Positions 1 to 34,444 of a DNA stretch of 35,994 nt are shown one piece after another. The stretch lies in the NCBI GenBank assembly GCA_028695025.1, contig JAQVJV010000009.1, positions 1-35,994 of the forward strand. The letters are read 5' to 3'. This stretch comes from Candidatus Moraniibacteriota bacterium (GTDB lineage Bacteria > Patescibacteriota > Minisyncoccia > Moranbacterales > UBA11712). The notes under the pieces are model-generated. The model was not told the DNA's origin. It was given only the letters and a program-made list of their open reading frames with translations, and did no database searches. The position numbers and the translations under genes are program-made. Within the stretch, counting starts at the first letter, position 1; each line of letters opens with the position of its first letter.

Positions 1-65
1 TCTTCTTTCTTGGGAAGATCGATAATTGGGGCGATTAACGCCCACTGTTCGTTGGTAGTGTCCAT
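1..65 (-). CDS. Partial IS transposase N-terminus (IS5/IS4-like, DUF4096-type), runs off the left edge
   Basis: Reverse complement from 65 reads MDTTNEQWALIAPIIDLPKKE, resembling 'xxTDEQWxxIxPLLP' transposase N-termini; possible TGGTATAAT -10 at 104..96 (minus). Confidence 0.7.
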   Translation of the reverse strand, partial: MDTTNEQWALIAPIIDLPKKE

Positions 66-149
66 AGCACAATTTTTGTTTTGTTTATGCTATGAATTAT
101 ACCAAAGAATTTTGAGATACGCTCTAATATGTATTAATTCGTAATTTTT

Positions 150-1763
150 ATGAACAAAGACTATATAATCGAATCATTGAAAAAACAAATCGAAGGTTTC
201 AAGGCCGAAACAAAATCCGAGAAAACCGGGCGGGTGGTTGAAGTCGGGGACGGAATCGCGCGCCTAAGCGGGCTTTCCGACGCGATGGCTTCGGAAATGC
301 TGGAATTTCAAAGCAAATCCGGAACGACTTTCGGCGTGGCTCTCAACTTGGAAGAAGACCAGATCGGAGCGATGATCCTCGGGGAATATGAACAGATCAA
401 AGAAGGCGACGCGGTGCGCTCGACCGGGAAAATTCTTTCCGTCCCGGTGAGCGAAAAAATCATCGGGCGTGTTGTGAATCCGCTCGGGATTGCAATTGAC
501 GGAAAAGGTTCAATAACAGATTCGCACGAATTAGATACAGATTCAACACAGAGGACACAGATGGGTAATCTGTGTAATCCGCGTGAAATCAGTGATAAAT
601 CCGCGAAAATTGGTGGGTTAAAATTCTATCCGATTGAAAAAATCGCCGCAGGGGTGATTGAGCGCGAATCAGTGAAAGAACCGCTCCAAACCGGGATCAA
701 AGCGATTGACTCGGTGATCCCGATCGGGCGCGGCCAGCGCGAACTCATCATTGGCGACCGCCAGACCGGAAAAACGGCAGTGGCGATTGACGCGATTATC
801 AACCAAAAAGATGGCGACGTGATTTGCATATATGTCGCGATCGGTCAAAAGGAATCAAAAGTGGCGCGTATCGTGGCGGAACTCGAAAAAAACGACGCCA
901 TGGAACATACGATTGTCGTGGTGGCGGGTGCGTCTGATCCAGCTTCCCTTTCTTTCATTGCGCCGTATGCTGGTTGCGCCATCGGGGAATATTTCATGGA
1001 TCAGGGGCGCGACGTGCTCATCATCTACGACGATCTTTCCAAGCACGCCTGGAGCTATCGCCAAGTCTCGCTTCTTCTTCGCCGTCCGCCGGGACGCGAG
1101 GCCTATCCGGGGGATATCTTCTATTTGCACTCCCGTCTTCTTGAACGAAGTGCTAAGCTCTCAAAAGAATTCGGGGGCGGATCAATCACGGCTCTTCCGA
1201 TCATTGAAACCCAAGCCGGCGATGTTTCCGCATATATTCCGACGAACGTCATTTCCATTACGGACGGGCAGATTTATCTTGAAGCCGATTTGTTCTACAA
1301 GGGAATTCGTCCGGCTCTGAACGTCGGTCTTTCAGTGTCGCGCGTGGGATCAGCCGCCCAAATCAAGGCGATGAAAAAAGTGGCCGGGAAACTGCGGCTT
1401 GACCTTGCCCAGTTCCGCGAACTCGAGGCCTTTGCCCAATTCGGTTCCGATCTGGATGAATCAACCCGCAAACAGATTGAACGAGGCCAGCGGACGGTGG
1501 AAGTTTTGAAGCAGGATCAGTATGAACCGATGCCGGTGGCGAACCAGGTGGCGATTATCTACGCGCTCACCAACGGATATCTCGACGATGTGGCGGTGGC
1601 CGACATTCAAAAATGGGAAAAAGATTTTCATAGCTATTTGAAAGACGCGAAGCAGGATGTTTTGGATCTCATCGCGGAGAAGAAAGAAATCACGGAAGAA
1701 GTTGAAGAGAAACTCAAGAAAGCGATTGATGAGTATAAAGAAATTTATAGTAATGATCAATAG
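150..1763 (+). CDS. atpA: F0F1 ATP synthase subunit alpha, with an in-frame insertion
   Basis: [16 protein letters not shown]-loop, [26 protein letters not shown], and AtpA C-terminal region. Confidence 0.97.
511..602. repeat. Inverted-repeat element of the ACACAGATTA family lying in frame inside atpA
   Basis: aacagattcgcacgaattagatacagattcaacacagaggacacagatgggtaatctgtgtaatccgcgtgaaatcagtgataaatccgcg; arms match the repeats flanking the GxxExxY gene. Confidence 0.8.
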
Positions 1764-1784
1764 AATTTTACAATTTGGTTTTCT

Positions 1785-1821
1785 GAAGGCTCAACCTTCG
1801 GAGGCCGAAGGTTGAGCCTTC
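1785..1821. repeat. Perfect palindrome between atpA and atpG (16-bp arms); same family as the element inside uppP
   Basis: GAAGGCTCAACCTTCG-GAGGC-CGAAGGTTGAGCCTTC. Confidence 0.9.
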
Positions 1822-1824
1822 ATT

Positions 1825-2787
1825 ATGCCACAAGGAATACGCGAACTGAAAAGACGCATCAAGTCCGTCAACAATACCAAAAAAATCACCCGCGCCATGG
1901 AAATGGTGGCGGCTTCGAAGATGCGTCGGGCGGTATCGGCGGTTCTTGCAGTGCGTCCCTACGCCCATTCTGCCTGGTCAATTCTCACCAATATGGCGCG
2001 TGCTTTTGAAAACTACGAAACCCCGCTGCTGGTTGCACGGGAAGTGAAAAATATTTGCGTGATTGTGATAACTTCAAACCGCGGTCTCTGTGGCGGATTC
2101 AACTCACAGATTTTGCGAAAAGTGAACGAACAGCTGAAAAAGCCAAGCCTCCTCAAGATCAACCGGGTTGGCGATAAAAGGATCGAATCAAAAGTGGCGG
2201 ATGAGGATATAAAAATTGATTTCATTACTATCGGCCGGAAGGGAAGTGATTTGGTTTCGAAACTGGGGCGGAAAATTATTGCCCAATTTAACGAGTTGAC
2301 TTATATGCCCAAAGCCGAAGAAGTGCGGGCGATGGCGCGATTGGTGATGGATGATTATGCGGCGGGAAAATACGACAAGGTTGTGATCGCTTATACGGAC
2401 TATGTTTCGGCGGTTTCCCAGCAATCGAAACTGCGCCAGATCCTTCCGATTTCGAAAATTGATCTTGAAAAGCAATTGGCTGAAATGGATATTCACGCCG
2501 ATGAGTATGGACTCAACGAGCCGCCGATGGAATATAAAGTAGAACCGGATGCCCGGACAATCCTTGAAAATATTCTACCGCGGCTGGTCGAGATGCAGAT
2601 ATACCACGCGATCCTCGAGTCGAACGCTTCGAAGGAATCGGCGCGGATGGTGGCGATGCGGAACGCGACGGATGCGGCGACGGATATGGCGGACAACCTC
2701 ACCCTTGTTTTCAACCAGGCTCGCCAAGCCGGAATCACGCAGGAAATCGCGGAAATTTCCGCGGGACGCGCGGCGCTGGAGCAATAA
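1825..2787 (+). CDS. atpG: F0F1 ATP synthase subunit gamma
   Basis: MPQGIRELKRRIKSVNNTKKITRAMEMVAASKMRRA; SNRGLCGGFNSQ; C-terminal MRNATDAATDMADNLTLVFNQARQAGITQEIAEISAGRAAL. Confidence 0.96.
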   Translation: MPQGIRELKRRIKSVNNTKKITRAMEMVAASKMRRAVSAVLAVRPYAHSAWSILTNMARAFENYETPLLVAREVKNICVIVITSNRGLCGGFNSQILRKVNEQLKKPSLLKINRVGDKRIESKVADEDIKIDFITIGRKGSDLVSKLGRKIIAQFNELTYMPKAEEVRAMARLVMDDYAAGKYDKVVIAYTDYVSAVSQQSKLRQILPISKIDLEKQLAEMDIHADEYGLNEPPMEYKVEPDARTILENILPRLVEMQIYHAILESNASKESARMVAMRNATDAATDMADNLTLVFNQARQAGITQEIAEISAGRAALEQ

Positions 2788-4285
<1,498 letters not shown>

Positions 4286-4817
4286 ACGCGGATTTAAAAC
4301 GGATTTAACACAGATAACACAAATTAAAACAGATTATTTAATGTATAATAGGGAGGATAAAAAATTTTTGTACAAAGATTTGAGTTATAGGCTTGTTGGA
4401 ATTTGCATGGCAATACACAGAGATTATAAAGCTATCCACAGCGAAAGGATATATCACAAGGCATTTGAAGAAAAATTGAATCTGGAGAATATCAGATTTT
4501 TGTCAAAACCGAAAGTTACAATTTATTCAAGAGATACTGGAAATGAAATCGGATATTATGAGCCAGATTTGGTGCTCGACGAGAAGATTGTTGTTGAGCT
4601 TAAAGCAACGCCACAAAATTTTAGAAAATATGAGATCCAGCTCTCGGAGTATCTGAAAATATCAGAATATGAGTTGGGATATTTGATAAATTTCGGCTTG
4701 CCTTCCCTTTATTTTAAAAGAATTATTTATACCAACGATAATAAATCATTTTTTTCGAGAATTAAGCAAAAAAAATCTGTGTAATTCGTGCCAATTTGTT
4801 ATAAATTTGTGTAAAAT
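4286..4817. mobile_element. Putative GxxExxY cassette: ORF bracketed by inverted ACACAGATTA-type repeats, between the atpD stop and atpC start
   Basis: Left: acgcggatttaaaacggatttaacacagataacacaaattaaaacagatt. Right, reverse complement: ttttacacaaatttataacaaattggcacgaattacacagatt. Confidence 0.5.
4341..4784 (+). CDS. GxxExxY-family protein (possible PD-(D/E)xK-like fold)
   Basis: SYRLVGICMAIHRDY...SERIYHKAFEEKL...YEPDLVLDEKIVVELKATPQNFRKYEIQLSEYLKISEYELGYLINFG; D...ExK-like pattern; start at 4341 excludes repeat-encoded residues. Confidence 0.8.
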   Translation: MYNREDKKFLYKDLSYRLVGICMAIHRDYKAIHSERIYHKAFEEKLNLENIRFLSKPKVTIYSRDTGNEIGYYEPDLVLDEKIVVELKATPQNFRKYEIQLSEYLKISEYELGYLINFGLPSLYFKRIIYTNDNKSFFSRIKQKKSV

Positions 4818-5255
4818 ATGTCTACCATAAAATTCAAGATCGTCACTCCCGAACGCACTGTATATTCCGACGCGATCGGCCAGCTTACCATTCCGACCAT
4901 GGAAGGCGAAATCACCGTGCTTCCTGGACATATACCGATTATTTCCGTTTTGGTTCCGGGCGAGCTTATGGTGAAAAAAGACGGCGAAGAGGTAGCGATG
5001 GCGGTTTCCGGCGGTATGGTGGAGGTTCGCAAAAACGAAATAACAGTGCTCGCCGACACGGCCGAACGGGCGGAAGAAATCGATCTCGCGCGGGCGGAGG
5101 AGGCGCGGGCCAAAGCCGAAAAGATCAAGGAAGAAAAAATCCGGATGGATGACGTGGAATACGCGGCGGCCGTCGCGGCGCTTCTCGAAAGGAACCTTGC
5201 CCGCATCCGCGTGGCCAAAAAGCACCTGACGAAAAGGGGAATGAGGATTGAGTAG
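4818..5255 (+). CDS. atpC: F0F1 ATP synthase subunit epsilon
   Basis: MSTIKFKIVTPERTVYSDAIGQLTIPTMEGEITVLPGHIPIISVLVPGEL; C-terminal helical segment. Confidence 0.96.
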   Translation: MSTIKFKIVTPERTVYSDAIGQLTIPTMEGEITVLPGHIPIISVLVPGELMVKKDGEEVAMAVSGGMVEVRKNEITVLADTAERAEEIDLARAEEARAKAEKIKEEKIRMDDVEYAAAVAALLERNLARIRVAKKHLTKRGMRIE

Positions 5256-5365
5256 CACAAGTTTAACACAAATTTTTCCCAGATTAAGGCAGATTACGCA
5301 GACTGTATTTGTGTAATCTGTGCAATCTGCGGAAATATGTTAATAATCCGTGTAAAATCTGTCTT
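5256..5365. repeat. Gene-less inverted repeat of the ACACAGATTA family (MITE-like)
   Basis: agcacaagtttaacacaaatttttcccagattaaggcagattacgcaga...tttgtgtaatctgtgcaatctgcggaaatatgttaataatccgtgtaaaatctgtc. Confidence 0.75.
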
Positions 5366-5812
5366 ATGAAAACAGAATTTAAATTCAAAGGAATTCACTG
5401 CTGTGAGGCCGTCGTCCTCGCCTGTATCGACTTCCGCTTTTGGAAGGAGACAATGAAGTTTGTCGAAGAGGAACTCGGGATTAAATCGTATGACTTTCCG
5501 AAGCTTCCCGGCTCGGCGAAAGCCATCAACGAGTGCGCGAGCGGCGCGGACGTCCCGATGGCCTGTATCGGCGTGCCATGCGATTTGCACCATGTCGGAA
5601 AAATCGTGATTGCGAATCACTCCGATTGCGGTGCCTACGGCGGATCGGCAAAATTCAACGGAGACGATGAAGCCGAACAGAAGTTCCACGAATCGGAACT
5701 CAAAAAAGCCGAAGAAAAAATCAAAGCCCAATATCCCGGTAAAGAAGTGGTTCTCGTCTACGCGAAACTGGTGGACGATGGGGAGAATATTGATTTTTTG
5801 CGGGTGGATTAG
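5366..5812 (+). CDS. Compact beta-carbonic-anhydrase-like protein
   Basis: C-x-D-x-R (ACIDFRF) and H-x-x-C-G (HSDCGAYGG) zinc-ligand motifs; start re-assigned to MKTEFKFKG. Confidence 0.65.
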   Translation: MKTEFKFKGIHCCEAVVLACIDFRFWKETMKFVEEELGIKSYDFPKLPGSAKAINECASGADVPMACIGVPCDLHHVGKIVIANHSDCGAYGGSAKFNGDDEAEQKFHESELKKAEEKIKAQYPGKEVVLVYAKLVDDGENIDFLRVD

Positions 5813-5839
5813 ATTTTTTGTGTTTATAGCTGAAATTAT

Positions 5840-5878
5840 AAAAGGCGAGTCTCATTGGACTCGCCTTTTATTTTTTTA
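5840..5878 (+). terminator. Rho-independent terminator
   Basis: AAAGGCGAGTC-TCATTG-GACTCGCCTTTT followed by a T-rich run. Confidence 0.85.
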
Positions 5879-5880
5879 TA

Positions 5881-5909
5881 TTGACAAGAAAAAAATATTT
5901 TTGTATATT
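5881..5909 (+). promoter_or_regulatory. Sigma70-like promoter for the cytidylyltransferase-like gene
   Basis: TTGACA (5881-5886), 17-bp spacer, TATATT (5904-5909). Confidence 0.75.
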
Positions 5910-5945
5910 ACAAAAAAACATTTCCAGGAAAGGAGATTTAGGTTT

Positions 5946-6470
5946 ATGCCTCAAAACAAAATTTTCGGGTTAGGGGATGTCGGAAATGTGTGTCGCGAAC
6001 TGAAACATCGCGGCGAAAAAATTGTTCTTACTACGGGTTGTTTTGACTTGGTACATCCGGGTCATGTCATTCATGTGCATCAAGTCGGTGCATTTGGGTG
6101 TCTTGTTGTTGGTATTAATAGTGATCAGTTTGTCAAAAAAATGAAAGGACCCTTTCGACCTGTCCAAGGCCAGGATGCAAGGGCGTTCATTATGGCTGGA
6201 TTTACTCCAGTCCGAATCGTCACGGTTTTTGATGACGATTATCGCCTTATTGAAGAAGTTCAGCCAGACATATATGTTTTGTCCACATTGTCGCATATAC
6301 GGGTCGGCGAAGATCCGGAACGCGTTCAGCTTCTCAAGAGTTTGGGTGCAGAAATCAGAGAAGTTGATGGGCGAAAGATCGACTCAACGACAAATTTGAT
6401 AAAAAGGGCAGCACTGATTGCGGCAAACCCATACAATGCCGTCACGACAACCCAAGCTCCTCAGCAATGA
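5946..6470 (+). CDS. Adenylyl/cytidylyltransferase-like protein (RfaE/HldE C-terminal-like)
   Basis: TTGCFDLVHPGHVIHVHQV (GxFDxxHxGH-type nucleotidyltransferase motif), INSDQFVKKMKG; SD aggaaaggag. Confidence 0.8.
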   Translation: MPQNKIFGLGDVGNVCRELKHRGEKIVLTTGCFDLVHPGHVIHVHQVGAFGCLVVGINSDQFVKKMKGPFRPVQGQDARAFIMAGFTPVRIVTVFDDDYRLIEEVQPDIYVLSTLSHIRVGEDPERVQLLKSLGAEIREVDGRKIDSTTNLIKRAALIAANPYNAVTTTQAPQQ

Positions 6471-7704: not shown

Positions 7705-7756
7705 TTGATAAAATCCCCAAAACGAGCTAAAGTGAGTATGTATAAAAGTGGCATTT

Positions 7757-10639
7757 ATGAAAAAATATAATCCAAAATCTATCGAGGCGAAATGGCAGAA
7801 ATACTGGCGGAAAAAGAAATTGCATAACACTTCCGACAGCGTGCCCGGGAAGAAAAATTTCATACTGCTCACCGAATTTCCCTATCCGTCCGGGAATTTG
7901 CATATCGGCCATTGGTATGCGTTTGCTGTGCCGGACATCCTGGCGCGGTTTTTGCGTTTTCAGGGAAAAAATGTGATGTATCCGATGGGCTTTGACGCTT
8001 TCGGCCTCCCGGCGGAGAACGCGGCGATCAAGCGGAAATTGGATCCCAAAAAATGGACCGAGCAGAACATCAAATACATGGCCGACCAGTTCGAAACAAT
8101 GGGAGCGAGTTTTGATTGGTCGCGGAGCGTCTCGACGATTGATTCGGAATATTACAAATGGACGCAGTGGATATTTCTCGAAATGCTCAAAAACGGGCTT
8201 GCCAGGAAAGCCGAAACGACTGTCAATTGGTGCCCGGGATGCAAGACGGTGCTTGCGAACGAACAAGTGGTGAATGGCGCATGCGAGCGTTGCGACGCGG
8301 CGGTCGAGCAAAAAAAGATGGCTCAGTGGCTGTATCGGACCACGGCTTATGCCGACAAACTGACGGACGATCTTGAGAAACTCGATTGGCCGGAGTCGAC
8401 GAAACTGGCGCAGAAGAATTGGATTGGAAGAAGCGAGGGAACAACCATAAAGTTCAAAGTTAAAAGTGAAAAGTTAAAAATTAAGGAAGACATTCATTTT
8501 AAAGTCTTCACGACGCGCTTGGATACTATATATGGCTGCACTTATTGCGTGCTTGCTCCCGAGCATCCGCTCGTCGAAGAATTGAGAGACGGAATAAAAA
8601 ACTATAAAGATGTAGAAAAATATATTGCCAAAGCCAAGAAGAAAACCGAACTTGAGCGCACCGAACTTCAAAAGGAAAAAACCGGCGTTGAGCTCAAAGG
8701 CGTAAGCGCCATAAATCCATTTACAAATGAAGCCGTGCCGATATTCGTTGCCGATTATGTCCTGGGAAACTATGGGACCGGCGCGGTGATGGCGGTTCCC
8801 GCCCACGACGAACGGGACTGGGAATTTGCGAAAAAATACAAATTGCCTGTGAAGCAATCAATCGCTCCCCATAGCTTTGATGAAAAAAATCCTCCTCGAA
8901 AAGGAAAAAAGAATACGGTGAGAAAAGTGGTTCACGTTTTGCTCACAAGAAAAAACGGCGATGTCCTGACATTGAACCTGAAAGGCGATGAGTGGGGAAA
9001 AGAGAAGCCAAAGACATTTGTCATTGGCGGAATCGAAGATGGGGAAAGTCCTGAAAAAACGGCGCTTCGCGAAGTGCGGGAAGAAACCGGATATGCGGAC
9101 GTGGAAGTCGTGAAGGTGATGCCCATTGAATTCCATGCGGAATTTTTTGCGGCCCACAAGGATGTGAACCGGTACGTGAAAACGACCGGCGTGGTTTGCC
9201 GATTGAAATCGGAAAAGAGGCGGGAAGTGAGCGAGGAAGAAAAAAACCTCCACGAGCTTGTTTGGGTGAAGCGGGAAAAGCTCCCGACTTCCCTTACTAT
9301 TCCGGACGATATTTTTCTTTCTAAGGCCTATCTTGAAGCTGTTGATACTTATGCCGGACCGGGGGTTCTGATCGACTCCGGAAAATATTCCGGACTTGAT
9401 TCCGCAAAAGCCCGCGAGGAAATGGCGAAGTGGCTTGAGAAAAACAGGCTTGGAAAAAAAACGGTGAACTATCGCCTTCACGACTGGGTGATTTCGCGGC
9501 AGAGATATTGGGGAGCGCCGATCCCGGTCGTATACTGCGAAAAGTGCGGAATTGTTCCTGTTCCAGAAAAAGATCTTCCGGTGAAACTTCCTCCGCTCAA
9601 GGATTTTCTTCCGACCGGAGACGGAAAATCGCCGCTTGCGAAAGCCACGAAATGGGTGAATGTGAAATGTCCGAAATGCGGGAGCCGGGCCGAGCGCGAG
9701 ACGGACACGATGGACACGTTTGTCGATTCATCCTGGTATTTCTTGCGCTACGCCGACCCCAAGAACAAGAAAAAATTTGCCGAACGCGCCAAGATGAAAA
9801 AATGGCTTCCGGTTCCGCTATATATCGGCGGCGCGGAACACAATACGATGCATCTCCTCTACTCCCGCTTTTTCACGAAAGTTCTCAATGATCTTGGGCA
9901 TGTCGATTTCGACGAACCTTTTGTCGGGCGGCGCAATCATGGGACGATCCTCGGTCCGGACAACCAAAAAATGTCCAAATCACGCGGGAACGTCATTGAT
10001 CCGGATGAGCAGGTGAAGAAATGGGGCGCGGACAGCGTGCGGATGTATCTTGCTTTCATGGGTCCGTACGACCAAAACGCCAGCTGGCAAATGACCGGAA
10101 TTGTAGGCGTACGGCGGTTTTTGGAGAGAGTATGGAAATTGAAATCAAAGATCAGTGAACAAAGACCAGTGAACAATGAATTGGAAAGCTTGTTCAATAA
10201 AACCATCAAAAAAGTTACAGAAGATATTGAGAATCTGCATTTCAATACTGCTATAAGCTCATTGATGATACTTCTTAACGAATTGGAAAAACAAGAACAA
10301 ATATACATTATACATTATACATTATACATTATACTTTTAAGCCCTTTTGCTCCTCATGTCGCCGAAGAAATCTGGTCTGAACTCGGTCATGGGAAGTCTA
10401 TTTTTCTTGAAAAATGGCCGAAATATGATCCGAAACTTGTTCAGGAAACGGAAGCGACGCTTATCATCCAGGTGAACGGAAAAGTCCGCGATGAGATGAA
10501 AATTGCGATTGAGGCGGGCGAGCGAGAAGCCAAGGGCCTGGCTCTCCAGTCAGAAAAAATCCAAAAATATATTCCGGACGAAGCCGAAATCAGAAAAATA
10601 ATTTTTGTTCCCGGACGGCTCATCAATTTTGTGCTATAG
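7757..10639 (+). CDS. leuS: Leucyl-tRNA synthetase with a Nudix domain inserted in the CP1 editing region
   Basis: YPSGNLHIGHWYAFAVPDILAR; NQKMSKSRGNVIDPDE; editing-domain FTTRLDT and AVPAHDERDWEFA; Nudix box GGIEDGESPEKTALREVREETGY. Confidence 0.95.
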   Translation: MKKYNPKSIEAKWQKYWRKKKLHNTSDSVPGKKNFILLTEFPYPSGNLHIGHWYAFAVPDILARFLRFQGKNVMYPMGFDAFGLPAENAAIKRKLDPKKWTEQNIKYMADQFETMGASFDWSRSVSTIDSEYYKWTQWIFLEMLKNGLARKAETTVNWCPGCKTVLANEQVVNGACERCDAAVEQKKMAQWLYRTTAYADKLTDDLEKLDWPESTKLAQKNWIGRSEGTTIKFKVKSEKLKIKEDIHFKVFTTRLDTIYGCTYCVLAPEHPLVEELRDGIKNYKDVEKYIAKAKKKTELERTELQKEKTGVELKGVSAINPFTNEAVPIFVADYVLGNYGTGAVMAVPAHDERDWEFAKKYKLPVKQSIAPHSFDEKNPPRKGKKNTVRKVVHVLLTRKNGDVLTLNLKGDEWGKEKPKTFVIGGIEDGESPEKTALREVREETGYADVEVVKVMPIEFHAEFFAAHKDVNRYVKTTGVVCRLKSEKRREVSEEEKNLHELVWVKREKLPTSLTIPDDIFLSKAYLEAVDTYAGPGVLIDSGKYSGLDSAKAREEMAKWLEKNRLGKKTVNYRLHDWVISRQRYWGAPIPVVYCEKCGIVPVPEKDLPVKLPPLKDFLPTGDGKSPLAKATKWVNVKCPKCGSRAERETDTMDTFVDSSWYFLRYADPKNKKKFAERAKMKKWLPVPLYIGGAEHNTMHLLYSRFFTKVLNDLGHVDFDEPFVGRRNHGTILGPDNQKMSKSRGNVIDPDEQVKKWGADSVRMYLAFMGPYDQNASWQMTGIVGVRRFLERVWKLKSKISEQRPVNNELESLFNKTIKKVTEDIENLHFNTAISSLMILLNELEKQEQIYIIHYTLYIILLSPFAPHVAEEIWSELGHGKSIFLEKWPKYDPKLVQETEATLIIQVNGKVRDEMKIAIEAGEREAKGLALQSEKIQKYIPDEAEIRKIIFVPGRLINFVL
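8453..8475. repeat. Short AT-rich repeat in the leuS reading frame, near-identical to 23059..23081
   Basis: TTCAAAGTTAAAAGTGAAAAGTT vs TTCAAAGTTAAAAATGAAAAGTT (22/23). Confidence 0.7.
10304..10334. repeat. 7-bp tandem repeat (TACATTA, about 4.4 copies) inside leuS
   Basis: TACATTATACATTATACATTATACATTATAC, encoding YIIHYTLYII. Confidence 0.9.
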
Positions 10640-27876: not shown

Positions 27877-27975
27877 GCAAATACGCGAATGAATGCAAAT
27901 GATGCGAATATGCAAATTTGCAAGTTTTTATTCACAAATTCTGTATTTGTGTAAGATTCGCGTCATTCAAGTAGT
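27877..27975. repeat. Inverted-repeat element (ATGCAAATnCGCGAATGAATGCAAATG family) upstream of lepB
   Basis: atgcaaatacgcgaatgaatgcaaatgatgcgaatatgc...tgtatttgtgtaagattcgcgtcattc; about 34/39 identity with 32486... Confidence 0.85.
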
Positions 27976-32503: not shown

Positions 32504-32574
32504 ATGCAAATGGCGCGAATTTGCGAATTCTCATATTCGTGTATTTGCATAAGATTCGCATATTTGTGTTTTCT
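32486..32574. repeat. Inverted-repeat element of the ATGCAAAT/CGAATGAATGCAAATG family, overlapping the ybeY 3' end
   Basis: atgcaaatccacgaatgaatgcaaatggcgcgaatttgc...tattcgtgtatttgcataagattcgcatatt. Confidence 0.85.
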
Positions 32575-34247: not shown

Positions 34248-34366
34248 AAAAGGCAAAGGGCAAAAATCAAAAGTCAAAATTACAATTCAAAATTAAAAAG
34301 TATTCCGGAATGGAAAATTTTTGACTTTTGACCTGCACTTTTGCCTTTTGAATTTTGGATTTTAAT
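34247..34366. repeat. Inverted repeat (CAAAAGGCAAAnG...TCAAAAGTCAAAA) between ftsA and ftsZ
   Basis: Left arm aaaggcaaagggcaaaaatcaaaagtcaaaatt; right arm reverse complement caaaaggcaaaagtgcaggtcaaaagtcaaaaatt. Confidence 0.75.
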
Positions 34367-34444
34367 CTTGCTTGACATTTTGGGTTTAATTATGCTAGTT
34401 TACTTAACCAACCAATTTCAAATAAATTAGACATAGGAAATATT

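Follow-up and report, generated by a model that had tools for sequence, protein, structure and literature searches.

A candidate homing-like palindromic element with a predicted PD-(D/E)xK nuclease of the GxxExxY family between atpD and atpC of a Candidatus Moraniibacteriota bacterium

REP/RAYT systems consist of palindromic, non-autonomous repeats and a dedicated enzyme gene that is flanked by those repeats. Short palindromes that lie in frame in unrelated protein genes have been described as Rickettsia palindromic elements (RPEs) (PMC10969869). Intervening sequences of 23S rRNA, which are located in rRNA, are excised by RNase III (PMC4990558). The models of the protein families PF13366 (PDDEXK_3) and TIGR04256 (GxxExxY) cover the protein only; neither their names nor their descriptions mention paired arms, in-frame insertion, or mobility, and GxxExxY is named just in passing in open-licence PMC papers. 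In this study, we analyzed a GxxExxY gene in a stretch of 35,994 nucleotides (here called the window), which is contig C11 (JAQVJV010000009.1) of a 984-kb, 99% complete genome (GCA_028695025.1). We regard the feature as a homing-like selfish palindromic element that is spread by its own PD-(D/E)xK nuclease, a reading to which we assign a probability of roughly 0.6.

Anatomy of the atpD-atpC unit and its predicted nuclease

An earlier note on this DNA had placed a GxxExxY unit exactly between the atpD stop and the atpC start, and sequence and ORF list confirmed this position. The atpD stop codon occupies 4283-4285, atpC starts with the ATG at 4818, and an arm-ORF-arm unit of 532 bp fills 4286-4817 exactly. 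The parts of the locus are as follows.

2852-4285, plus strand: atpD, left neighbour, intact (ORF list; 77-90% identity to atpD of relatives)
4286-4340, plus strand: left arm, made of directly oriented ACRCRRATT-like units of ~10 bp, from the atpD stop onward (sequence, unit scan, RNA fold, complementarity above shifted controls)
4341-4784, plus strand: GxxExxY/PDDEXK_3 predicted nuclease ORF (PF13366, TIGR04256, invariant residues, AlphaFold2 model, PDB fold matches)
4772-4817, minus strand: right arm, inverted ACRCRRATT-like units that begin within the 3' end of the ORF and run to the atpC start (sequence, unit scan, RNA fold, complementarity)
4818-5255, plus strand: atpC, right neighbour, intact (ORF list; 73-78% identity within the same family)

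The ORF may start at ATG 4341 or at TTG 4368, the latter behind AGGGAGG, and its stop codon (4782-4784) lies inside the right arm. The unit scan found the arms to be inverted copies of degenerate ACRCRRATT-like units, on the plus strand in the left arm and on the minus strand in the right one, with a local complementarity score of 20 compared to a 95th percentile of 14 in shifted windows. The proposal of inverted arms of the same kind thus held in orientation and in exceeding the controls, but ACACAGATTA is exact in neither arm (at least one mismatch), and the two arms match imperfectly, at 78% over their best 18 nt. This copy is the sole GxxExxY gene found in its own genome. No Rfam match was obtained in window positions 1 to 6000, which include the unit, and the unit lies outside any rRNA gene, the location that defines 23S rRNA intervening sequences.

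Arms of this kind could also act at the RNA level, in the manner of 23S rRNA intervening sequences: RNase III or the GxxExxY protein would cut the arm stem in the mRNA, and the insert would be insulated or excised. Left and right arms of the window unit do pair in the RNA minimum-energy fold, RNase III cuts the terminal stem of the Coxiella intervening sequence (PMC4990558), and the same arm type is found around four-helix-bundle genes whose products are related to those of 23S rRNA intervening sequences. However, in the in-frame copies described below neither arm interrupts the host reading frame, a constraint that would be needless if the insert were excised and the ends religated; the fold class best matches DNA nucleases; and an RNA-level role by itself leaves an insert younger than its host unexplained. 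We consider this explanation improbable.

The window ORF belongs by score to both PF13366 (E = 3e-22, 79.4 bits, cut-off 22) and TIGR04256 (E = 2e-22, 80.1 bits, cut-off 35) and has PD-(D/E)xK residues. Alignment assigned the catalytic residues to E35, D76, E86, and K88 (numbered from 4341). E, D, ExK, Q, and Y are invariant across alignments of 27 and 41 relatives (A1 and A3), and the window protein keeps all of them; judged by these alignments, its putative PD-(D/E)xK set, E-D-ExK-Q, is intact. An AlphaFold2 model (pLDDT 88.7) was matched by Foldseek to Cas4 and lambda-type exonucleases, the catalytic domain of I-Bth0305I also being among the matches. Because VIA-align Z scores stayed below 8, the fold class alone is claimed: the protein is a predicted nuclease with a PD-(D/E)xK fold, as the earlier note had proposed. 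Two further identities were considered. T7 endonuclease I is a junction-resolving enzyme, and a profile match of the T7 type (E = 0.015, weak) together with a structural Z of 5.9 for Hjc makes a Holliday-junction resolvase no more than suggestive; the match would fit cutting of cruciforms and is too weak to count as evidence enough. A role as a defense system was rejected, the sole indication being a weak Cas4 profile match (E = 0.003).

Arms and junction states in relatives

We gathered 118 distinct GxxExxY copies from relatives and from named genomes, the latter searched with a five-sequence alignment (A2), which gave a set biased toward the LTYKIR clade. For the 113 copies with enough flank, arms were scored as local complementarity between the upstream and downstream 160 bp, with windows of the same locus shifted by 600-1200 bp as controls. 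The median score was 22 (n = 113) compared to 10 in shifted windows, 10 in dinucleotide shuffles, and 11 in mismatched upstream/downstream pairs; 98/113 copies lay above the 95th and 82/113 above the 99th percentile of the shifted windows. Paired arms flank GxxExxY genes generally, and the possibility raised beforehand that other genes of the family lack them did not come true. Many named relatives of the element fall in Patescibacteria, and among the 30 copies counted outside this group by locus number and record title, which come from Bacteroidota, Halomonadaceae, Desulfobacterota, Planctomycetota, and others, 24 exceeded the 95th percentile. Copies in cultured Halomonas, Oceanisphaera, Lacibacter, and Segatella make the element testable. 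Presence is patchy, with GxxExxY genes in 25/54 and 69/237 genomes and up to eight copies per genome. At one locus (L036, G117:C19:11629-13000), two GxxExxY genes that are 44% identical lie ~1 kb apart. A GxxExxY gene is also annotated in an algal virus, Chrysochromulina parva virus (PMC12085832), which extends the family beyond bacteria.

The arms consist of short units every ~10 bp, direct in the left and inverted in the right arm. Arm autocorrelation was in excess at lag 10 in free and in-frame copies, as well as at lag 11 in the free and lag 21 in the in-frame set; this spacing suggests that the units might be contacted on one face of the DNA. The unit sequence varies by element (ACACAGATTA-, ACTAAT-, ACGAATTACGAA-, ATGCGAAT-, and ACGCGGATT-like), with the arms of one element agreeing, so that a single protein family would have to recognize structure or to coevolve.

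Comparison of the atpD-atpC junction revealed several states. It is empty (9-17 bp) in five genomes of the same family and order, and in eight others a spacer of 91-150 bp is, as judged by eye, an arms-only palindrome with other unit sequences. One further genome has a 516-bp unit with a four-helix-bundle ORF (Pfam 23S_rRNA_IVP), which also gives a weak score for bAvd, an accessory protein family of diversity-generating retroelements. Three genomes were left out because their alignment ends overlap atpC. It is thus not the case that relatives all carry the gene here without repeats, and the empty, arms-only, and alternative-cargo states bear out the earlier suggestion of a mobile unit that entered an essential operon without breaking either gene. 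A second junction, ribF-ribE, has no gap in three genomes, an arms-only palindrome in one, and a GxxExxY unit in two; no target-site duplication was seen there by eye. Some junctions are held in different genomes by GxxExxY proteins that are just 32-35% identical (neighbors about 35-60%), which suggests that these copies may have arrived independently. Two points go beyond the earlier note: some arms lack the nuclease or surround a different ORF, and a sister lineage is found in frame within host proteins. Among four-helix-bundle genes of relatives, 21/24 had arms above the 95th percentile. Since arms of the same kind carry this gene instead of the nuclease at some sites, the nuclease would be dispensable in some units; this and the variable unit sequence speak against an element spread by its own nuclease.

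Arms without an ORF were also detected in the window itself, at the following positions.

519-611, plus strand: arms-only palindrome in frame in atpA, adding 31 amino acids (unit pattern +++---; insertion relative to solved AtpA; fold)
5266-5364, no strand assigned: arms-only palindrome just past the 3' end of atpC (unit pattern +++-----; fold)
27883-27963, no strand assigned: arms-only cluster whose unit is a variant, located upstream of the signal peptidase gene (unit pattern +++--)
32513-32569, no strand assigned: arms-only cluster whose unit is a variant, located between two genes (unit pattern +---)

Further arms-only clusters of the window type, with plus and then minus units, occur on two other contigs (C10 and C31) in sampled stretches of the same genome, where a census of unit clusters gave 11 compared to 8 in five shuffles. 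Strong palindromes with other units are present at window positions 2780-2920 (atpG/atpD) and 34260-34375 (ftsA/ftsZ) and probably represent further arms-only elements of this general kind. Transcription terminators are an unlikely identity for the palindromes, which also occur in frame inside ORFs.

These forms raise the question of whether the arms are the mobile entity, moved in a MITE-like manner by an unrelated host or transposon enzyme or by template switching during replication, with the GxxExxY and four-helix-bundle proteins as passengers that have another role. The occurrence of arms alone at several sites and with two unrelated ORFs agrees with this, as does the presence of arms-only palindromes of other unit sequences at junctions that carry the nuclease unit in other genomes. 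This reading is opposed by the lack of any variation at the catalytic residues among the aligned copies, by purifying selection on the domain even in LepA and RecG, and by the RibF case, in which the block that moved is the whole arm-ORF-arm unit (see below). We therefore hold a passenger role to be unlikely, although less so than an RNA-level one, and prefer an element moved by its own nuclease.

In-frame copies and signs of repeated spread

About 40 of the 118 GxxExxY copies are located in open frames of >250 amino acids that run on into a host protein; another (L078), in a long frame unlike a host gene, was set aside from this count. Pfam analysis of six in-frame hosts identified LepA, RecG, LeuRS, type II NADH dehydrogenase (NDH-2), a heavy-metal P-type ATPase, and riboflavin kinase (RibF) around PDDEXK_3. 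The same scan found no protein-splicing (Hint) domain in the six proteins, and an intein was rejected on this ground. The insert is located in the loop before LNLIDTPGH in LepA and in the loop between DEQHRFG and TATPIPR in RecG, and genomes of the same genus have the loop uninterrupted (two genome pairs for LepA, one for RecG). LepA was found at one place per genome among 20 searched, with no spare copy seen and two genomes listing two pieces of one frame. Downstream stops are present in 77/77 free copies and stops near the domain in 1-2/40 in-frame copies, a difference that is partly due to the construction of the groups.

The arms of in-frame copies encode linker peptides, TNADYTQ-like on the left and SLRESASS-like on the right. 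In an AlphaFold2 model of a LepA fusion (pLDDT 71.7, moderate), an ordered nuclease domain lies between low-confidence linkers, a model that does not give the domain arrangement. Outside the insert, the coding sequences of LepA and RecG hosts contained 5 short palindromes compared to 1 in codon shuffles, numbers too small for statistics. Other inserted domains were seen in LeuRS. The LeuRS gene of the window (7748-10639) has a NUDIX domain within the editing region, and the LeuRS of locus L101 has a serine-hydrolase-like domain in this region besides its GxxExxY insert. The L101 ORF further encodes CHSELDSESQ...IPDQVRDD, an additional short peptide of palindrome-like appearance that resembles a repeat common in other bacteria.

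In a tree of 96 domains, 35 in-frame copies (18 in LepA, 13 in RecG, and 4 in others) form one supported clade (99/90), within which LepA and RecG hosts interleave, including a supported LepA-RecG sister pair, and the LeuRS copy nests among LepA copies; as the domain is short, some forks of this tree are open. Synonymous divergence was compared between inserts and hosts in pairs sharing a site, a contrast that rests on three or four pairs. The dS was 0.075 for the insert compared to 1.27 for the host in a RecG pair, 0.088 compared to 0.365 in a LepA pair, and 0.079 compared to 0.73 in a RibF pair, i.e., the insert is younger than the host gene at all three shared sites. Sharp edges were found in RibF only, where the block of high identity is bounded by the arms (ACTCGCGAAT ... 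ATTCGCGAGT). In the RecG pair, similarity ends clearly on the right but not on the left, and a recombined tract is an alternative reading of its contrast. A Halomonadaceae pair was uninformative on transfer, its flanks being as similar as the insert. For pairs unsaturated at synonymous sites, dN/dS of the domain was 0.05-0.2 (the LepA and RecG host genes gave 0.04-0.07), which indicates purifying selection on the GxxExxY domain, even inside LepA and RecG.

Alternatively, GxxExxY could be a vertically kept host domain or regulator, e.g., in repair or defense, and the palindromes terminators or mRNA stabilizers. Recurrent LepA and RecG sites across families and the weak Cas4 similarity of the protein could be taken in its favor. 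Yet presence is patchy with empty alleles in the same genus, the insert is much younger than the host and switches hosts in the tree, copies at the same junction share just 32-35% identity, and palindromes occur in the middle of ORFs, where a terminator makes no sense. Of the explanations weighed, we find this one the least credible. As in homing genes, occupied and empty alleles are both seen, in the LepA and RecG loops (same genus), at ribF-ribE, and at atpD-atpC (related genera). Taken at the level of sequence, the data support repeated movement of an arm-ORF-arm unit into a restricted range of sites.

Proposed mechanism and comparison with known systems

We infer that the nuclease is the mover, that it cuts DNA at a particular substrate, and that copying occurs by repair. 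Most likely, the nuclease would cut an empty or palindrome-bearing site, or else a cruciform made by the arms, and repair would then fill the break with a copy of the whole arm-ORF-arm unit, as in homing. Copies would persist at harmless positions. These are the boundaries between operon genes and, for one lineage, surface loops of essential proteins that are entered in frame; there, the arm-encoded peptides would act as flexible linkers and the nuclease as a tolerated inserted domain. Arms-only copies would represent a non-autonomous form and four-helix-bundle copies a form with alternative cargo. This homing-like model is the most economical. A broader proposal, which we advance more tentatively, is a distinct class of bacterial mobile elements with phased palindromic arms and interchangeable cargo (a PD-(D/E)xK nuclease or a four-helix-bundle protein) that homes to cruciforms or earlier palindromes, with arms-only copies as landing pads, and that in one lineage has become a permanently translated, unspliced domain in essential proteins.

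The model offers a function hypothesis for a family annotated merely as GxxExxY protein, which the common architecture of the arms connects with the 23S rRNA intervening-sequence protein, likewise unexplained. LepA, RecG, and LeuRS can contain a selfish-looking nuclease as an in-frame insert for which no splicing apparatus was found, and annotators should avoid reading such inserted domains as host functions.

No description of an arm-gene-arm element of this kind was found in open-licence PMC papers, and an earlier account may exist elsewhere. In REP/RAYT systems, the enzyme is an HUH-type transposase and the REPs are conserved in sequence, whereas the element described here has a PD-(D/E)xK enzyme and a unit that varies. 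23S rRNA intervening sequences with an S23/IVP protein likewise have terminal complementary arms around a small ORF, and the relative with the 23S_rRNA_IVP gene at atpD-atpC has it in the same arm type; in contrast, the element here lies between or inside protein genes and mostly encodes an unrelated nuclease. Homing endonuclease genes are also small nuclease genes that reach the same conserved sites repeatedly, and PD-(D/E)xK folds occur among homing enzymes. Unlike these genes, the element has palindromic arms, no intron or splicing domain was found with it, and the insert is kept in the host protein; we speak of homing by analogy.

The closest description of in-frame palindromes is that of RPEs. 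The atpA insert of the window looks the same in kind, as do the short palindromes that LepA and RecG host genes carry in frame. RPEs measure ~150 bp and form ten named families in Rickettsia, while the element here has a nuclease-bearing form, a variable unit, and arms built of ~10-bp units. We know of no nuclease form and no mover of RPEs. For in-frame palindromes, the element thus supplies a candidate enzyme whose active site is intact and which shows signs of having spread more than once.
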